Assembly: GCF_004353525.1 (NCBI RefSeq)
Contig: NZ_CP085524.1
Span: 2,638,142-2,702,141 of the forward strand
Source of the DNA: Zhaonella formicivorans
Lineage (GTDB): Bacteria > Bacillota > DUOV01 > Zhaonellaceae
Length of the DNA stretch: 64,000 bases
Reading direction: 5' to 3'
Shown here one piece after another: positions 5,418-58,626 of the stretch. Position 1 is the first letter of the stretch. Each line of letters opens with the position of its first letter. The notes under the pieces are model-generated. The model did no database searches. It was not told the origin of the DNA and was given only the letters and a program-made list of their open reading frames with translations. Both the position numbers and the translations under genes were made by a program.

Positions 5418-7189
5418 ATGTATCTAAAGATAAGCATGAGTAATGGTAAACCCTATTTGTCTTTTGTCCAAGGTTACAGACAGAATGGAAAGGTAAAACA
5501 AAAAACTGTTGAGAAACTTGGCTATCTAGAAGATCTGGAAAAGAAATATTCTGATCCTATTGCTCATTTCAAGCAGGTCGCAAAGGAACGTTCTAAGAGT
5601 GAAACTTGTCAGAAAACATTAGAACTTAACCTGTCAGCCAAGCTGCCGGATCAAGCAGCATTGCGCAAAAATCTTGGTTATGTTGTGCCAAAGTCAGTGT
5701 ACTCCCTACTTGGTCTTAGGGAATATTTTCAGAAAAAGCAAAGGCTTTTGAACGTGGATTACAACCTAAACAGTATATTCAGCCTGCTTATTTTTAATCG
5801 CTTTTTATTTCCTTCATCAAAAAAGAACGCCTTTGAAACCAAAAATTTCTTCTTTGAATCCTTTGACTTTTCATTGGCTGACATTTACCGCGCCCTGGAT
5901 TACTTTGCCGCATATTCAAACGAAATCCAACGGCATCTTCATAGCCAGGTATGCGACCTTATAGGAAGAAATAACCAACTTGGATACTATGATGTCACCA
6001 ATTACTACTTTGAGATCCCCTATGAGGATGAAGATGAATACGATGAAGACGGGAACATGATTAAAAAGGGGCAAAAAAAGCGTGGTCCATCCAAAGAGCA
6101 CCGTAAAGATCCAATTATTCAGATGGGACTCCTCATGGATTCAAATGGAATCCCCATAGCCTTCAATACTTTTTCCGGTGGTGAAAGTGAAAAGCTCTCT
6201 CTCCTTCCAACAATTCGCCGTGTAAAGAAAGATTTTGCCTTGGAACGTATTATCGTTGTGGCAGACAGGGGACTCAACACTAGTGATAATACTGCATTTC
6301 TTTCTGGAAAGAACCATGATGACATGGCAGGGAATGACGGTTATGTTTATGGACAGAGTGTTCTCGGTGCTGACAAACAATTCAAAGAATGGGTATTAAA
6401 TCAGGAAGATTACTTAATTGACACAGAAGAAGATAAGGATGGAAATACCGTCTCTTTTAAGCACAAATCCCGGATTTATGCAAAAAAAATCCAATTAAAG
6501 GGGACGGATGGTAAACGTGACCGAACAATGGAAATATATCAGAAACAGATGGTTTACTATTCCGAAAAATACGCCTTAAAACAGAAAAAGATAGGGATAA
6601 GGCTATTGCCAAGGCAAAAGAGCTGATTGCCAATCCCGGCAAATATACAAGAGCTACCAGCATTGGAGCCGCCGGCTATGTAAACAATATCAAATTTTCA
6701 AAAGAAACAGGCGAAATACCTGACGGACTCATTCTTTCCCTGAACGAAGCAAAGATTAAGGAAGAAGAAAAATATGACGGATACTATTCCATTGTTACTA
6801 GTGAAAAACATTTATCTGATACAGAAATTCGGGATATTTACAAGGGGCTTTGGGAAATCGAGGAATCCTTCAAAATAATCAAGAGTGAATTCAAGGCAAG
6901 ACCTGTGTATGTTAAAAAAGATGAACATGTAGAAGCACATTTTCTGGTATGTTTTGTAGCACTTGTAATCATGAGGGTTCTTGAACAGATGTTAGAGAAA
7001 AAATATACTGTGAAACAGATTCGTAATTCCTTAATTAGCTATTCCTGCTCCTATTTGGAACAAAATTATTATCTGTTTGATTATCGAGATGATGTAATAA
7101 AATCCATTGAGTCTGTCTTTGGTTTTGACTTAAGTAAAAAAATTATGTCTCAAGCCGAGATCAAAAAAATTTTGCAATACAAAAAATAA
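5418..7189 (+). pseudogene. IS1634-family transposase, interrupted by a -1 frameshift
   Basis: DDE transposase of about 590 residues in two frames. Translation from ATG 5418 (MYLKISMSNGKPYLSF) runs to a stop at 6624-6626. The conserved sequence then continues in the -1 frame from the A5G run at 6585-6590 (QKK then DRDKAIAKAK) to 7189. The first catalytic Asp is in GYYDVTN and the second in VVADRGL. The final Glu (YKGLWEIEESFKIIKSEF) lies after the shift, so the first-frame product alone cannot be active. Either the gene is dead or the A-rich run supports programmed -1 frameshifting. A canonical slippery heptamer is not present (G AAA AAG rather than A AAA AAG), so damage is the simpler reading. 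Confidence 0.85.
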
Positions 7190-18433: not shown

Positions 18434-18508
18434 GCTGATGAATATTCATAAATATGAAGTATTTATATGGATGTTTGTATATGCTAGTATCGAATTGGAG
18501 GTGATTAC

Positions 18509-19291
18509 ATGCTAACCAATAAACAGGTGAACCAAGGCACTGGCTGTTGAAGTTCTGCGGAAAAAGGTGTTGGTCAACACCGGAAAATTAATACCGAAAA
18601 TTGTCTGGTTTGCGGAGGAAAACTGGAATACCTTGAAGTTGGCAAGGAATTTACATGTATGCAATGCGGCGCTGTAGAAAACGGTTATGTTTATTGTCGA
18701 AATGGTCATTATATCTGTGATACTTGTCACGGTAAAAAATTCTTGGAGGATATTTTAAATTTATCACTTGCTGCCAAAGGGACTGATCCCTTGCGGATAG
18801 CCGAAGAGATAATGAAGAGTGTTTCGCTCCCTATGTTAGGATGCGAACATGCCTGGGTTGCAGCCGGTGCTTTGCTGGCCGCCATAAAAAATCATGGCAA
18901 GATTGAGGTTACAGACTGCAAGATCGCCGAAGCACTTAATCGGACACGGAAGCAAGCGATTGGCGCATATTGTGGTCTGACCGGAGTATGTGGAGTGGCT
19001 ATCGCAATTGGAGCCTGCTTTAGTGTCATCCTTGACGCTGCCTGTCCAAAGGACCAAGAAACCGCTATCACTATGCACGTCGTTTCTCGGGTCATTGAAG
19101 CTATCGCTAATCAAACCGGCCCCTGCTGCTGCAAAAACTTTGTGCGAACCGCATTAGCACTAAGTTGCCAACTCGCAAAAGAACATCTCAATATTGAGCT
19201 GCCTCATACTGAAAAAATTATATGTCAGGATAGTCACCGACATCCACACGGTTGTAGAAATAATAAATGCATTTATTACCCATCTGATTAA
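18509..19291 (+). CDS. DUF5714 family protein, predicted selenoprotein with in-frame UGA
   Basis: The frame opens with ATG 18509 after a perfect GGAGGTGAT ribosome site and meets TGA at 18548-18550 (codon 14). It then continues without interruption to 19291, for 260 residues if UGA is read as selenocysteine. The N-terminus is MLTNKQVNQGTGC-U-SSAEKG, giving a redox-like Cys-Sec pair. After it come zinc-ribbon-type pairs (CLVC, CMQC, CRNGHYICDTC) and the conserved DUF5714 body (CEHAWVAAGALLAAI, AYCGLTGVCGVAIAIGACFS, GPCCCKNFVRTAL). No ATG, GTG or TTG occurs in frame between the UGA and codon 51, and the conserved CLVC region lies in that gap, so starting downstream would destroy the domain. A SECIS-like hairpin follows the UGA. 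The function of DUF5714 is unknown. A nonsense mutation is the main alternative. Confidence 0.8.
18566..18581 (+). promoter_or_regulatory. Candidate bacterial SECIS hairpin
   Basis: GGTGTT-GGTC-AACACC is a perfect six-pair stem with a four-base loop beginning GGU. It starts 15 bases after the in-frame UGA, and the loop G is about 21 bases from it. Bacterial SECIS elements recognised by SelB place a G-rich (often GGU) apical loop at this distance inside the coding frame. Confidence 0.75.
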
Positions 19292-19356: not shown

Positions 19357-19720
19357 TTATATATTAGACGTATTAACCATCGGATAGTTTTTTTTAATGT
19401 TTTTTATTACACTGGTCTGCTTTTCAATTGGGACTATCATGTCCTTAGTAATCTTCGCTCCTTCACCATGCTGGTGTAGGAAAGCACTCATAGCACAATG
19501 TTCGCCAAAGCCAAATACATAGCATGTTGTTGTGCCACTGGCAATAATAGTGTCCACCATTTCGATACCATGGTACATTTCAAAAAAGGTCTTTAAATAT
19601 TTAGCTGTTATTTCACCATGACCTTCCATTTTAAATATTCAAGTTTTCGAGAATGAGTTTTACCAGCTTATCTACGGAACTATTGTTTCGTGGGCTGCCG
19701 CTTACACCTATAACTTGCAT
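19357..19720 (-). pseudogene. Flavodoxin-like / FMN-reductase-type gene remnant
   Basis: From ATG 19720 a 29-residue frame reads MQVIGVSGSPRNNSSVDKLV, the flavin-phosphate loop start of the NADPH-dependent FMN reductase/flavodoxin family, and then stops at 19631. A second frame from 19629 gives 90 residues ending at 19357 (GTTTCYVFGFGEHCAMSAFL) that I cannot place with certainty. Full-length relatives are about 180-220 residues, so an internal deletion plus a stop is likely. The second ORF could instead be an independent small gene. Confidence 0.5.
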
Positions 19721-20628: not shown

Positions 20629-21327
20629 TTACACGGCTTCGATGGCGCCGGCAAGTTTTTCCCTGCTTAAAAGGATAAATTGGTGTCCCCTGGTGGCGAT
20701 GGCCCCCTCCTGCTTCAAATCGCCCAGAACATTGGTCACCATGACCCGCGAGGCGTTGACCAGGGAGGCTATATCCTGGTGAGTGAGGTCGATATCGATA
20801 ATGGTTCCTTCGGGAGAAGGTTTTCCGTATTCACCGGCCAGCCTGAGCAGCATGGCCGAAATTCTACCTTTCACATCCTGGAAGGCAATGCTGGCAACCT
20901 TATCGGTGTAATTATTTAATTTGCCCCCCAGCAGTTGTATTATTTTCAGGGCTGTTTGCGGGTTTTGCAGCAAAATGGCGAAGTGTTCTTTATTACATGA
21001 GCAGATAAAGGTATCCTTCATCGCCTGAGCATTCATGGTATGGCGGGCGTTTTCTTCAAAAAAAGTGTTTTCACCGAAAATATCGTCCTCTTTGAGGATA
21101 TCGAGGGTAATTTCCTTGCCACCTTCCGAAACTTTGAACAGCCTAACCTGGCCATACTTGATTAGGTAAATAGTATGCGCGGGATCTCCATCCCGGAAAA
21201 TCATTTCGTTTTTACGGTAGACTTTTTTACCGGCCAGTACCCCGATTTTTTCCCGTTCCGTAAAATCAAGGGTAGCGAACAGGGCCAGCTCTTTCATGCA
21301 TTTAATTTTTTGCATTAATTGTTTCAC
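20629..21327 (-). CDS. Crp/Fnr family transcriptional regulator
   Basis: 232 residues: a cyclic-nucleotide-binding-type beta barrel (about 15-135, IFRDGDPAHTIYLIKYGQVRLF and ILKEDDIFGENTFF) followed by a Crp winged helix (LTHQDIASLVNASRVMVTNVLGDL). The effector is not clear. The barrel lacks the usual N-terminal iron-sulfur cysteine cluster of Fnr, though it has a CSC near residue 110. Start GTG 21327 overlaps the stop of the DUF1638 remnant by four bases (GTGA), a coupling signal from when that gene was intact. Confidence 0.88.
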   Translation of the reverse strand: MKQLMQKIKCMKELALFATLDFTEREKIGVLAGKKVYRKNEMIFRDGDPAHTIYLIKYGQVRLFKVSEGGKEITLDILKEDDIFGENTFFEENARHTMNAQAMKDTFICSCNKEHFAILLQNPQTALKIIQLLGGKLNNYTDKVASIAFQDVKGRISAMLLRLAGEYGKPSPEGTIIDIDLTHQDIASLVNASRVMVTNVLGDLKQEGAIATRGHQFILLSREKLAGAIEAV

Positions 21328-21884
21328 CCATTCAAAAGTTGTTCCAACAGCTTGCGTAAATTGTCCAGATCCACCGGTATAGTTTCCACGGGCACTTGAG
21401 CGTAGTCATAGAATTCAAGCAGATTCATGTCGTCAATGGGTACAATTCCAGTGTCCAAAAGCAATATACGATCATAATAACCAAAATTTTGTCGGGCATC
21501 AACCGCGTCCCAACCCAACCCTTCCATAAAGATCTTGCGCCAGTTTTCCAGCCACCCGCTGGTGAGGTAAAAAGTTTTGGCTTCGGCGTCCAGCTCCGCC
21601 ATTTTTTCTCCCAGGAGCATCTCAATGCAACTTTTAGCCTGAATTACCCGCCCGCCGTGTTCTGCAGCTATTTGCTCCATCTCCGGATGGCATTGATTCC
21701 CTATTATCAAAGGGATATTGATTCAAGCTATTCCGCGCAAGTTTTCGGTTACGGATTGGGCCAGCTTATTAAGATCTACGTGTAAAGCTGCGTCGATGTA
21801 GGTAATATCTGCATTTTGTTCCCCTAACAGGTGTTCCAGTTCATGGCGCAGTATGCCGCAGCACAATATTTTTTTTCCGGACAA
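21324..21884 (-). pseudogene. DUF1638 protein gene with in-frame UGA
   Basis: A single frame from TTG 21884 (AGGGGGTG seven bases upstream) reads MSGKKILCCGILRHELEHLL, continues for 53 residues, hits TGA at 21725-21723, and resumes in the same frame with NIPLIIGNQCHPEMEQ to 21324. Both halves fit DUF1638, a domain often seen near corrinoid methyltransferase genes. The UGA falls just before the conserved strand, where Cys is not expected. The downstream hairpins lack a good GGU loop at the SECIS distance. A nonsense mutation is therefore likelier than selenocysteine, though the neighbouring selenoprotein candidate makes the question worth testing. Confidence 0.7.
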
Positions 21885-53025: not shown

Positions 53026-54018
53026 TTACTTTTTGTGAGGAATTTCCTTATAACCTGCATCGTCATGGCAGTTGACGCAGTTCATCTTGCCTTGCTCGTT
53101 GTCCAGCATGCTGTCTTTACCTTGGTGGCAGCCCATGCAAGCGGCAAACTCGGCAGGAACTGTGTATGACTTTGTAAAGTTCTTATCAATCAGTTTGGCA
53201 TTCAAGAGCTCAATAGCTTTGGCTGCTACATCGCCGGAAAGCTTTGCACAACGGTCATATTTTTCAGGGGAATTGACTTTAGCTCCCGCTGCTACACACC
53301 ACTTGGAAACTGAAGCGTGGCAGAGAGGCGAATTGGCTACTGTAGTAATTTGTCCTTTGAATTTGGCGTAAGCTTCATGCTTGCTGCTGGGGAATGGGAA
53401 AGTAGTATACCATCCCATTAATTCTTCTAAAATATCCGCATATTTTGGATCTACCAAGTTCATGACAAGCAAAGCCCCGTTTAATGCGCCGCAGAGGGTA
53501 CCCCAGCCGCCTGCTCCGCCAGAGCCGTATTTAAACATTTCATCGGGCAGTAAAGTGTAGGGATAGCCAACTTTTTCGCGTAATTGTTTGATAATTGCCA
53601 AAGCAGCGCTTGGCATGCAGCCGCCTTTGCTAAAATAGAAGTCATATCCGTCCTTATAGGCTGCTTCCGGATCCAATTTAACATAAGGCCAGGGGAAGGA
53701 AGGCTGTTCAGCGGGAGCGGTTACTACTTCCCCTACTTTACCCGTAATTGTTACAGTCCTGGTGGCATTGTCCCAGTCAAGTTTTGCACCCATGGGTTCT
53801 ACAACTTCTCTGACAGGGGCAACGGTAACGCCTTTGGAGATATTGGCACCGGCAATTTTCTTGCCGTTAACTACCACGTTTACTTTTTCAGCTGATAATG
53901 CTTCCACCGGGTTAACCCCGAAAACGCTGCCGGCTGTAACTACGCCGGCTGCCAGAGCACCTGCCCCGGCCAAAAACTTCCTTCTTGACAAACTTATTTC
54001 CTTATTTTTTTCTGCCAT
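53026..54018 (-). CDS. Tat-exported split-Soret-type diheme cytochrome with stalk domain
   Basis: 330 residues from ATG 54018 (GGAGGTGTAAGA upstream). The N-terminus has a twin-arginine signal SLSRRKFLAGAGALAAGVV. It is followed by a small domain resembling the copper-amine-oxidase N-terminal stalk (VNVVVNGKKIAGANISKGVT, ending DNATRTVTITG). The main domain is of the split-Soret / C-GCAxxG-C-C type (GGCMPSAALAII, GGWGTLCGALNGAL). Two CxxCH heme sites near the C-terminus are CMGCH and CVNCH. It probably works outside the membrane in electron transfer. tatA and tatC are divergently placed next to it. Confidence 0.85.
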   Translation of the reverse strand: MAEKNKEISLSRRKFLAGAGALAAGVVTAGSVFGVNPVEALSAEKVNVVVNGKKIAGANISKGVTVAPVREVVEPMGAKLDWDNATRTVTITGKVGEVVTAPAEQPSFPWPYVKLDPEAAYKDGYDFYFSKGGCMPSAALAIIKQLREKVGYPYTLLPDEMFKYGSGGAGGWGTLCGALNGALLVMNLVDPKYADILEELMGWYTTFPFPSSKHEAYAKFKGQITTVANSPLCHASVSKWCVAAGAKVNSPEKYDRCAKLSGDVAAKAIELLNAKLIDKNFTKSYTVPAEFAACMGCHQGKDSMLDNEQGKMNCVNCHDDAGYKEIPHKK

Positions 54019-57627: not shown

Positions 57628-58626
57628 ATGAATGCTGGAAAGCTCGATGCTTCCGCTTTGCTGAGCCGGGTATTTCCATATACCGGGAACAAAAGGGAAG
57701 AGGTTATTCTAAGATCGGCCATTGGCGAAGATTCCGCCGCCATAGCGCTGGATGAATGGTGCTGCGTTTTTTCCTCCGATCCCATCACCGGAGCTGTTTC
57801 CGACAGCGGTTGGCTGGCTGTACATGTTTCCTGCAATGATGTTGCTTCCAACGGCGCTGAGCCTGTTGGCGTGATGCTGACAATTTTAATGCCGGAAAAA
57901 GCAACCGATGAAGATGTGGAAAAGATTATGCAATCAGCAGACCGGGCTGCAAAAGAGCTGGGAATCGAAATTTTCGGCGGTCATACCGAGTTTACCGGTG
58001 GACTGGTCCAGCCTATTCTCTGTGCTACCGCCGTTGGGAAAGTAAAAAAAGGCGATTTAGTGACATCATCCGGGGCCCGTCCGGGAGATGATATTGTGCT
58101 CACCAAAGGGGCCGGTATTGAAGGCACTGCTATCCTGGCAACAGATTACGAGCATTATTTGCAGAATGTTATTCCTAGTGATTTGCTGCAAAATGCCAAA
58201 AACTTTATGCAGTGGATCAGTGTGGTTCAGGAAGGGTTGCTGGCTGCAAAATTTGGAGCTTCCGCCATGCATGATGTTACCGAAGGCGGGGTTCTGGGCG
58301 CCTTATTTGAAGTGGCCGAGGCTTCGGGAGTCGGTATTGAAGTAAATAAAGATTGTATACCGCTTTTTTCGGAAACGAAAGCAATTTGTGATGTTGTGGG
58401 TATTGATCCGTTGAAACTGATCTCCAGCGGGGCCATGCTCATTACAATTCAGAATGGAAAGAATTTAGTAGGGAAACTGCAGGCAAAGGGGATAAAAGCT
58501 GCTGTCATCGGCAAAGTAGTTGCAGGAAATCGCAAAGTGCTGCTTGACGGAGAGCAAATGGTGGAGATTAATAAGCCTGAAAGCGATGAGCTGTGGAGGG
58601 CAAAAAAGATCATAGAAGGCAAATAG
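57628..58626 (+). CDS. AIR synthase-family protein (HypE/ThiL-like)
   Basis: 332 residues with the two-domain AIR synthase fold: RSAIGEDSAAIAL (phosphate/ATP segment), SSDPITGAV, HVSCNDVASNGAEPVGVMLTIL, FGGHTEF, HDVTEGGVLGALFEVAEASGVG and KLISSGAMLI. It belongs to the unassigned HypE-like branch. It lacks the C-terminal Cys end of HypE and the Cys/Sec loop of SelD, so neither role is claimed. It follows a broken ECF S-component gene. In intact genomes such pairs hint at vitamin or cofactor chemistry. Confidence 0.85.
   Translation: MNAGKLDASALLSRVFPYTGNKREEVILRSAIGEDSAAIALDEWCCVFSSDPITGAVSDSGWLAVHVSCNDVASNGAEPVGVMLTILMPEKATDEDVEKIMQSADRAAKELGIEIFGGHTEFTGGLVQPILCATAVGKVKKGDLVTSSGARPGDDIVLTKGAGIEGTAILATDYEHYLQNVIPSDLLQNAKNFMQWISVVQEGLLAAKFGASAMHDVTEGGVLGALFEVAEASGVGIEVNKDCIPLFSETKAICDVVGIDPLKLISSGAMLITIQNGKNLVGKLQAKGIKAAVIGKVVAGNRKVLLDGEQMVEINKPESDELWRAKKIIEGK

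Follow-up and report, generated by a model that had tools for sequence, protein, structure and literature searches.

The genome of Zhaonella formicivorans contains a DUF5714 reading frame with a UGA at its fourteenth codon, and the question raised by this locus is whether that UGA is decoded as selenocysteine (Sec) or ends translation ahead of a shorter protein. We analyzed the 64,000-nucleotide stretch of DNA that holds the frame (the window) together with its genome and homologous loci elsewhere. The features of the gene are the following.

18497..18502, + strand: ribosome-binding site GGAGGT (direct reading; scored as a 6-nt Shine-Dalgarno match)
18509..19291, + strand: CU-DUF5714 gene, 260 codons (frame read; Pfam DUF5714, 178 bits)
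18545..18550, + strand: CU motif, Cys13 (TGT) and predicted Sec14 (TGA); TGA position kept in 47 of 49 homologous loci
18566..18581, + strand: predicted SECIS hairpin, 6 bp, loop GGUC, 15 nt past the UGA; all 6 pairs with compensatory changes in relatives
18602..18730, + strand: Cys-rich ribbon-like part; C32, C35, C50, C53, C63, H67, C70, C73 and H74 invariant in 36 aligned members
18755..19279, + strand: helical DUF5714 domain, in which C155, C161, C207 and C208 are conserved (PF18978, residues 83–257; AlphaFold2 model)

The reading frame and its homologues

The frame starts at ATG 18509, and codon 14 (TGA, 18548–18550) directly follows Cys codon 13 in the context G-T-G-C-U-S-S; past the UGA, 246 more codons remain open up to the TAA at 19289. 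In the window gene, the stretch from the UGA to the first Cys of the ribbon contains no ATG, GTG or TTG. The first ORF start available downstream under the standard code is ATG 18659, within the Cys-rich ribbon, and a standard-code reading of the frame gives only a product that begins inside that ribbon. On re-reading, the start codon with its ribosome site, the UGA at codon 14, its context and the 246-codon continuation were all found where a previous sequence-only reading of this DNA had placed them. That reading had also reported the lack of a start codon between UGA and ribbon, which is true of the window gene and, with it included, of 36 of the 47 loci examined; such a codon is present in 11.

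The predicted product consists of an N-terminal tail with the Cys-Sec (CU) pair, a Cys-rich ribbon that probably binds zinc, and the DUF5714 core. The four core cysteines (C155, C161, C207, C208) are invariant in the 36 aligned members, and the CU clade has in addition C112 and, in all members except L098, C206. In the AlphaFold2 model (mean pLDDT 85.4, pTM 0.84) the core is confident and has two parts, and residues 1–26 are unstructured (pLDDT <50). When the family profile was compared with PDB sequences, the best E-value was 0.084, and Foldseek returned no match at E 0.001. The best VIA-align match, to the helical domain of IRG1 (Z 5.4), was set aside as not meaningful according to the tool's own note.

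Homologous loci, 49 in all, were collected by a scan of genome contigs with peptide patterns placed outside the tail and UGA region, and come mostly from Desulfosporosinus, Desulfotomaculum relatives, Moorella, Thermincola, Clostridium and Anaerosolibacter. The sequence-only reading had proposed to align homologues and see whether Cys or UGA stands at the position in question: the alignment has an in-frame TGA there in 47 loci, Ser in one, a lost segment in one and Cys in none. The TGA follows Cys in 45 loci and Trp in two (L072 and L079, both Syntrophomonas MAGs), and CU is still present at 41% identity (L098). In L042, from a Pelotomaculum MAG, Cys is followed by TCA, a Ser codon (6037–6039), and the SECIS hairpin is still intact. 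In L059, also from a MAG, the UGA segment is missing and a new ATG beside the ribbon serves as start. The Ser codon and this loss of the tail, both in MAGs, suggest that the CU tail may be dispensable. The UGA/SECIS segment of L059 (identical with L006, genome G002) was seemingly excised with a frame shift, and that genome retains selB; the loss could be an assembly error.

A separate sample of the phylum comprised 398 genomes, and 48 of these had a match; in 17 of the 48 genomes a match begins at query residue 13 or earlier with one TGA inside; G165 of the same sample additionally proved to have CU when read. The viral collection contained no relative. A single CU-clade-like record, from Acetoanaerobium noterae (59% identity), was found in the plasmid collection; the record has 4 annotated features in all, so the missing annotation of the gene is uninformative. 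Three distant DUF5714 paralogues (L009, L108 and L110) carry two adjacent N-terminal cysteines immediately ahead of the ribbon, possibly a Cys counterpart of CU. Among the genomes with these paralogues, G163 and G408 are without a clear tRNA-Sec and G046 has one. The genome of Z. formicivorans itself holds a second DUF5714 gene (G000:C1:446123-446866), which is without the CU tail.

The hairpin, the decoding machinery and the fate of the UGA

The arms of the hairpin, GGTGTT (18566–18571) and AACACC (18576–18581), pair perfectly around the loop GGTC (18572–18575). The six-pair GGUC-loop hairpin that the sequence-only reading had seen 15 nt past the UGA was thus confirmed on the sequence, and it covaries in relatives. 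The window, both strands counted, contains 1909 TGA triplets. A hairpin with a 4-nt loop and a stem of 6 bp or longer follows 62 of them at equal distance, but the loop is GGTC in one case alone, that of the DUF5714 gene. The folding energy of the single sequence is unremarkable (z −0.10 and −0.74); as it was not significant, covariation was used instead, and the evidence for the hairpin is its position, loop and covariation, not its stability.

The covariation set comprised 51 TGA-bearing rows, 45 of them distinct, with identical rows counted once; rows from the same genome may be related. The register of each hairpin was the best pairing among four codon steps, after which L044, L054 and L094 were shifted to the GGTC register. 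L065 and L098 (no clear register), L042 (TCA) and L059, L072 and L079 (no register made) were left out. Paired cells made up 90.4% of the total compared with a shuffled mean of 76.6%, and 42 cells were doubly changed compared with 13.2 in shuffles; neither observed value was reached in any of 500 shuffles. When the partner was slid by 1–3 columns, at most 53.3% of cells were paired and 10 doubly changed. Changes on both sides were seen in all six pairs across the 51 rows, five of the six pairs were predicted independently by RNAalifold, and the loop is GGTC in 39 rows. Some compensations alter the amino acids encoded on both arms (e.g. GVGQH vs GIGQY), as expected if the RNA, not the protein, is constrained. 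In an Rfam search of 7 sources at the gathering threshold, tRNA-Sec was the only family matched.

The genes by which the sequence-only reading had suggested checking its claim, selA, selB, selC and selD, are all present in the 3.31-Mb single-contig genome. selA (618 bits), selB (401 bits) and selC lie together 1–4 kb before the window start; selD (401 bits), which has an in-frame TGA of its own, is found elsewhere. The tRNA-Sec scores 73.6 bits and has the anticodon TCA (ARAGORN). In a survey of selB (45 loci submitted, L074 left out), the gene scored above the cut-off in all 44 other genomes with the CU clade, whereas it did so in 2 of 14 controls. tRNA-Sec passes the official cut-off in 314 of the 398 genomes of the phylum sample and is so common that its co-occurrence is weak evidence; this cut-off also admits some other tRNAs, a tRNA-like match in the Z. 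formicivorans genome passing at 1.8e-8. Because of that match, a stricter line of E 1e-11 was set after the data had been seen, and at this line tRNA-Sec, counted by hand, is present in 18 of 18 CU genomes and in 21 of 29 genomes with other DUF5714 matches only. G002, in which the tail is lost, belongs to neither group and has tRNA-Sec at the same line. Elsewhere in the window, 57655–58389 (+ strand) gives a weak selD-family match (95 bits, under the cut-off of 125); its product probably belongs to a related kinase or synthase family.

From these sequence data we predict with high confidence that the window gene is a real selenoprotein gene encoding a stand-alone CU-DUF5714 protein of 260 residues, with UGA14 read as Sec: SelB and tRNA-Sec would decode codon 14 as selenocysteine, guided by the hairpin with the GGUC loop that follows it closely. 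If the UGA were instead a true stop, the functional protein would start downstream and the upstream part would be a leader. The tail-less DUF5714 paralogues, which begin right at the ribbon, agree with this, as do the new ATG just before the ribbon in L059, where the UGA segment is gone, and the start codons of some kind that 11 of the 47 loci offer between UGA and ribbon. However, the window gene and 35 other loci have no such start, CU is conserved in 45 of the 49 loci, and the hairpin, which lies at SelB distance, covaries; moreover, in L052, where CU is likewise present, the match to the model of the known selenoprotein MbdU (see below) includes the tail. We consider a true stop very improbable. 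A still smaller, almost negligible probability attaches to the idea that suppression or an altered code causes the UGA to be read as Cys, Trp or another residue. It would have to be reconciled with a full Sec gene set in the genome and a conserved SelB-type hairpin. In addition, in several homologues (e.g. L066) UGA apparently ends this same gene just past the conserved C-terminus, at a point beyond which none of the relatives extends, and is therefore a normal stop there.

Fusions, gene neighbourhoods and possible function

The stand-alone architecture predicted for the window gene is the commonest one: 42 of the 49 loci have it, a count that takes in incomplete loci such as L086. Three loci are fusions with DUF2284 (L052, L061 and L085), three with AhpD (L054, L075 and L076), and one (L069) has only a CKTU tail; the fusion domains were verified for L052, L054, L069, L075 and L076. 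In the AhpD fusions, TGA occurs in frame three times, in the motifs CU (DUF5714), CEPU (AhpD/CMD) and CKTU (C-terminal tail), and no NCBIfam model spans the whole triple-Sec protein in any of the three. In L075 and L076 a hairpin lies 11–13 nt past each of the three TGAs. In L054 a hairpin was scored for the last two, and its CU hairpin is GATGCT-GGTC-AACATC, with one mismatch. The CKTU hairpin has 7–8 bp and a loop of AGGAT, AGGTT or CGGGT, and reaches past the stop codon. In several other loci a TGA stands directly after the conserved end and is most likely an ordinary stop. L093 and L095 are triple-UGA fusions too, and L097, like L069, combines CU-DUF5714 with the CKTU tail alone; in both, the 7–8-bp hairpin of this tail is located beyond the stop codon.

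The neighbours of the gene are not conserved: besides ABC transporters, the largest family occurs in 6 of the 49 loci, and the window gene is not flanked by an arsenic or corrinoid operon. An ArsR-type regulator lies directly upstream in four loci (L058, L061, L076 and L085), and the neighbours in L058 further include ArsA, a heavy-metal ATPase and an Acr3-like transporter of SBF, the Pfam family to which Acr3 belongs. Genes for URO-D-type methyltransferases adjoin five loci, some with RACo, MtrH, B12-binding, CobW, CbiM, DUF6951 or DUF1638. Most of the 49 loci have neither the ars-type nor the URO-D-type context. In L038 and L048 a DUF1638 gene immediately precedes CU-DUF5714. The window itself has a DUF1638 gene (21315–21884, − strand, 111 bits) with an in-frame TGA at 21725, in a non-conserved stretch without a clear hairpin; this is more likely a nonsense mutation than a Sec codon. 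Two adjoining short frames of the window (19357–19720, − strand), the larger without a Pfam match, look to us like a split gene of the flavodoxin or FMN-reductase type.

The N-terminal tail, predicted to be flexible, could allow the Cys-Sec pair to reach the Cys-rich core. If mobile and close to Cys-rich sites, the two residues may act as a selenenylsulfide redox couple or bind a soft metal or metalloid. As natural substrate we tentatively propose a metalloid or a methylated metal or metalloid, which is possible, the rest of our expectation being spread over other redox roles. The partner domains point the same way: DUF2284 and AhpD-CKTU are common to DUF5714, the arsenite methyltransferase ArsM and MduS, and this exchange, with the ars-type neighbours, speaks for metalloid or methyl chemistry and against a plain thiol/selenol redox protein that has no metalloid role and either donates electrons or reduces peroxides or disulfides. 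The latter is nonetheless quite possible, if short of probable. The AhpD/CMD partners bear a CxxU motif, ETF/acyl-CoA dehydrogenase genes adjoin four loci, and 14 of the 36 members have weak similarity (best E 4.8e-5) to the "putative redox-active" family C_GCAxxG_C_C (PF09719); yet hhalign against a profile of the four C_GCAxxG_C_C proteins of the Z. formicivorans genome, a thin profile, gave a probability of 0.3%. The window protein has no PF09719 match at E 0.1, and L052 scores 21.1, under the cut-off of 27. That genome has four PF09719 matches, and within the window such a domain (53209–53601, − strand, 42 bits) lies inside a longer 340-aa frame.

Also possible, though less likely than not, is a scenario in which the stand-alone CU-DUF5714 protein would be the parent of a Sec-obligate family. 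It would be a metalloid or methyl-metal module interchangeable with arsenite methyltransferase, recruiting the same Sec partners to give two-Sec (MbdU) and three-Sec (CU, CEPU, CKTU) proteins, with a separate hairpin for each Sec and the last one extending into the 3' untranslated region.

Relation to MbdU and other known families

In Pfam, the window protein matches DUF5714 (PF18978) only, at 178.1 bits against a cut-off of 26.2. Among NCBIfam models, none besides NF045648 (MbdU) matches the single-domain form, and the score against that one, 355.7 bits, is below its cut-off of 600, with residues 16–258 of the window protein aligned to model positions 25–267 of 468. Each of the 36 aligned members hits NF045648 but none of the other selenoprotein models; the sole further hit is a weak one to PriA. 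The "metal-binding double selenoprotein MbdU", with motif CU and two Sec, is listed in a 2026 review (PMC13188914), which cites Haft and Tolstoy 2025, and the fused form is already handled as a Sec protein by NCBI. The literature searched contained no mention of DUF5714; a word search of the deep-Sep paper (PMC12013277) returned neither DUF5714 nor MbdU.

The sequence-only reading had proposed a new selenoprotein with a CU motif and a GGUC SECIS. The assignment as a selenoprotein stands, given the TGA in 47 of 49 loci, the covariation and the Sec genes, but the claim of novelty holds only in part, since MbdU is catalogued: the module is already known, and the stand-alone single-Sec form is a variant without an NCBIfam name of its own. 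The sole NCBIfam model that recognizes the family requires the fused form, leaving nameless there the form found in 42 of 49 loci, and, as none of the loci has Cys in place of Sec, a search based on Sec/Cys pairs would miss it.

L052, from Desulfosporosinus acididurans, is a true MbdU (789 bits, DUF5714 plus DUF2284) and matches the model from its position 2 onward, CU tail included. The window protein shares with MbdU the N-terminal CU motif, the Cys-rich ribbon and the DUF5714 core. In contrast, it is without the C-terminal DUF2284 half and the second Sec that this half carries, its frame ending at TAA 19289, after DUF5714. The non-Sec DUF5714 proteins (PF18978) are alike in ribbon and core (30–36% identity in five aligned paralogues), but they are without the CU tail and read MHGPEHH in place of the PMLGCEN/H of the CU clade. 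ArsM_DUF2284_UU (NF041536), ArsM_AhpD_UU (NF041537) and MduS (NF045649) have an N-terminal methyltransferase, not DUF5714. At the C-terminus they bear the Sec domains that are joined to CU-DUF5714 in the fusions (DUF2284 in L052; AhpD with the CKTU tail in L054, L075 and L076); the window protein has no such partner. This exchange of partner domains with ArsM provides a testable lead to the role of the family in Desulfosporosinus-, Desulfotomaculum- and Moorella-type anaerobes.
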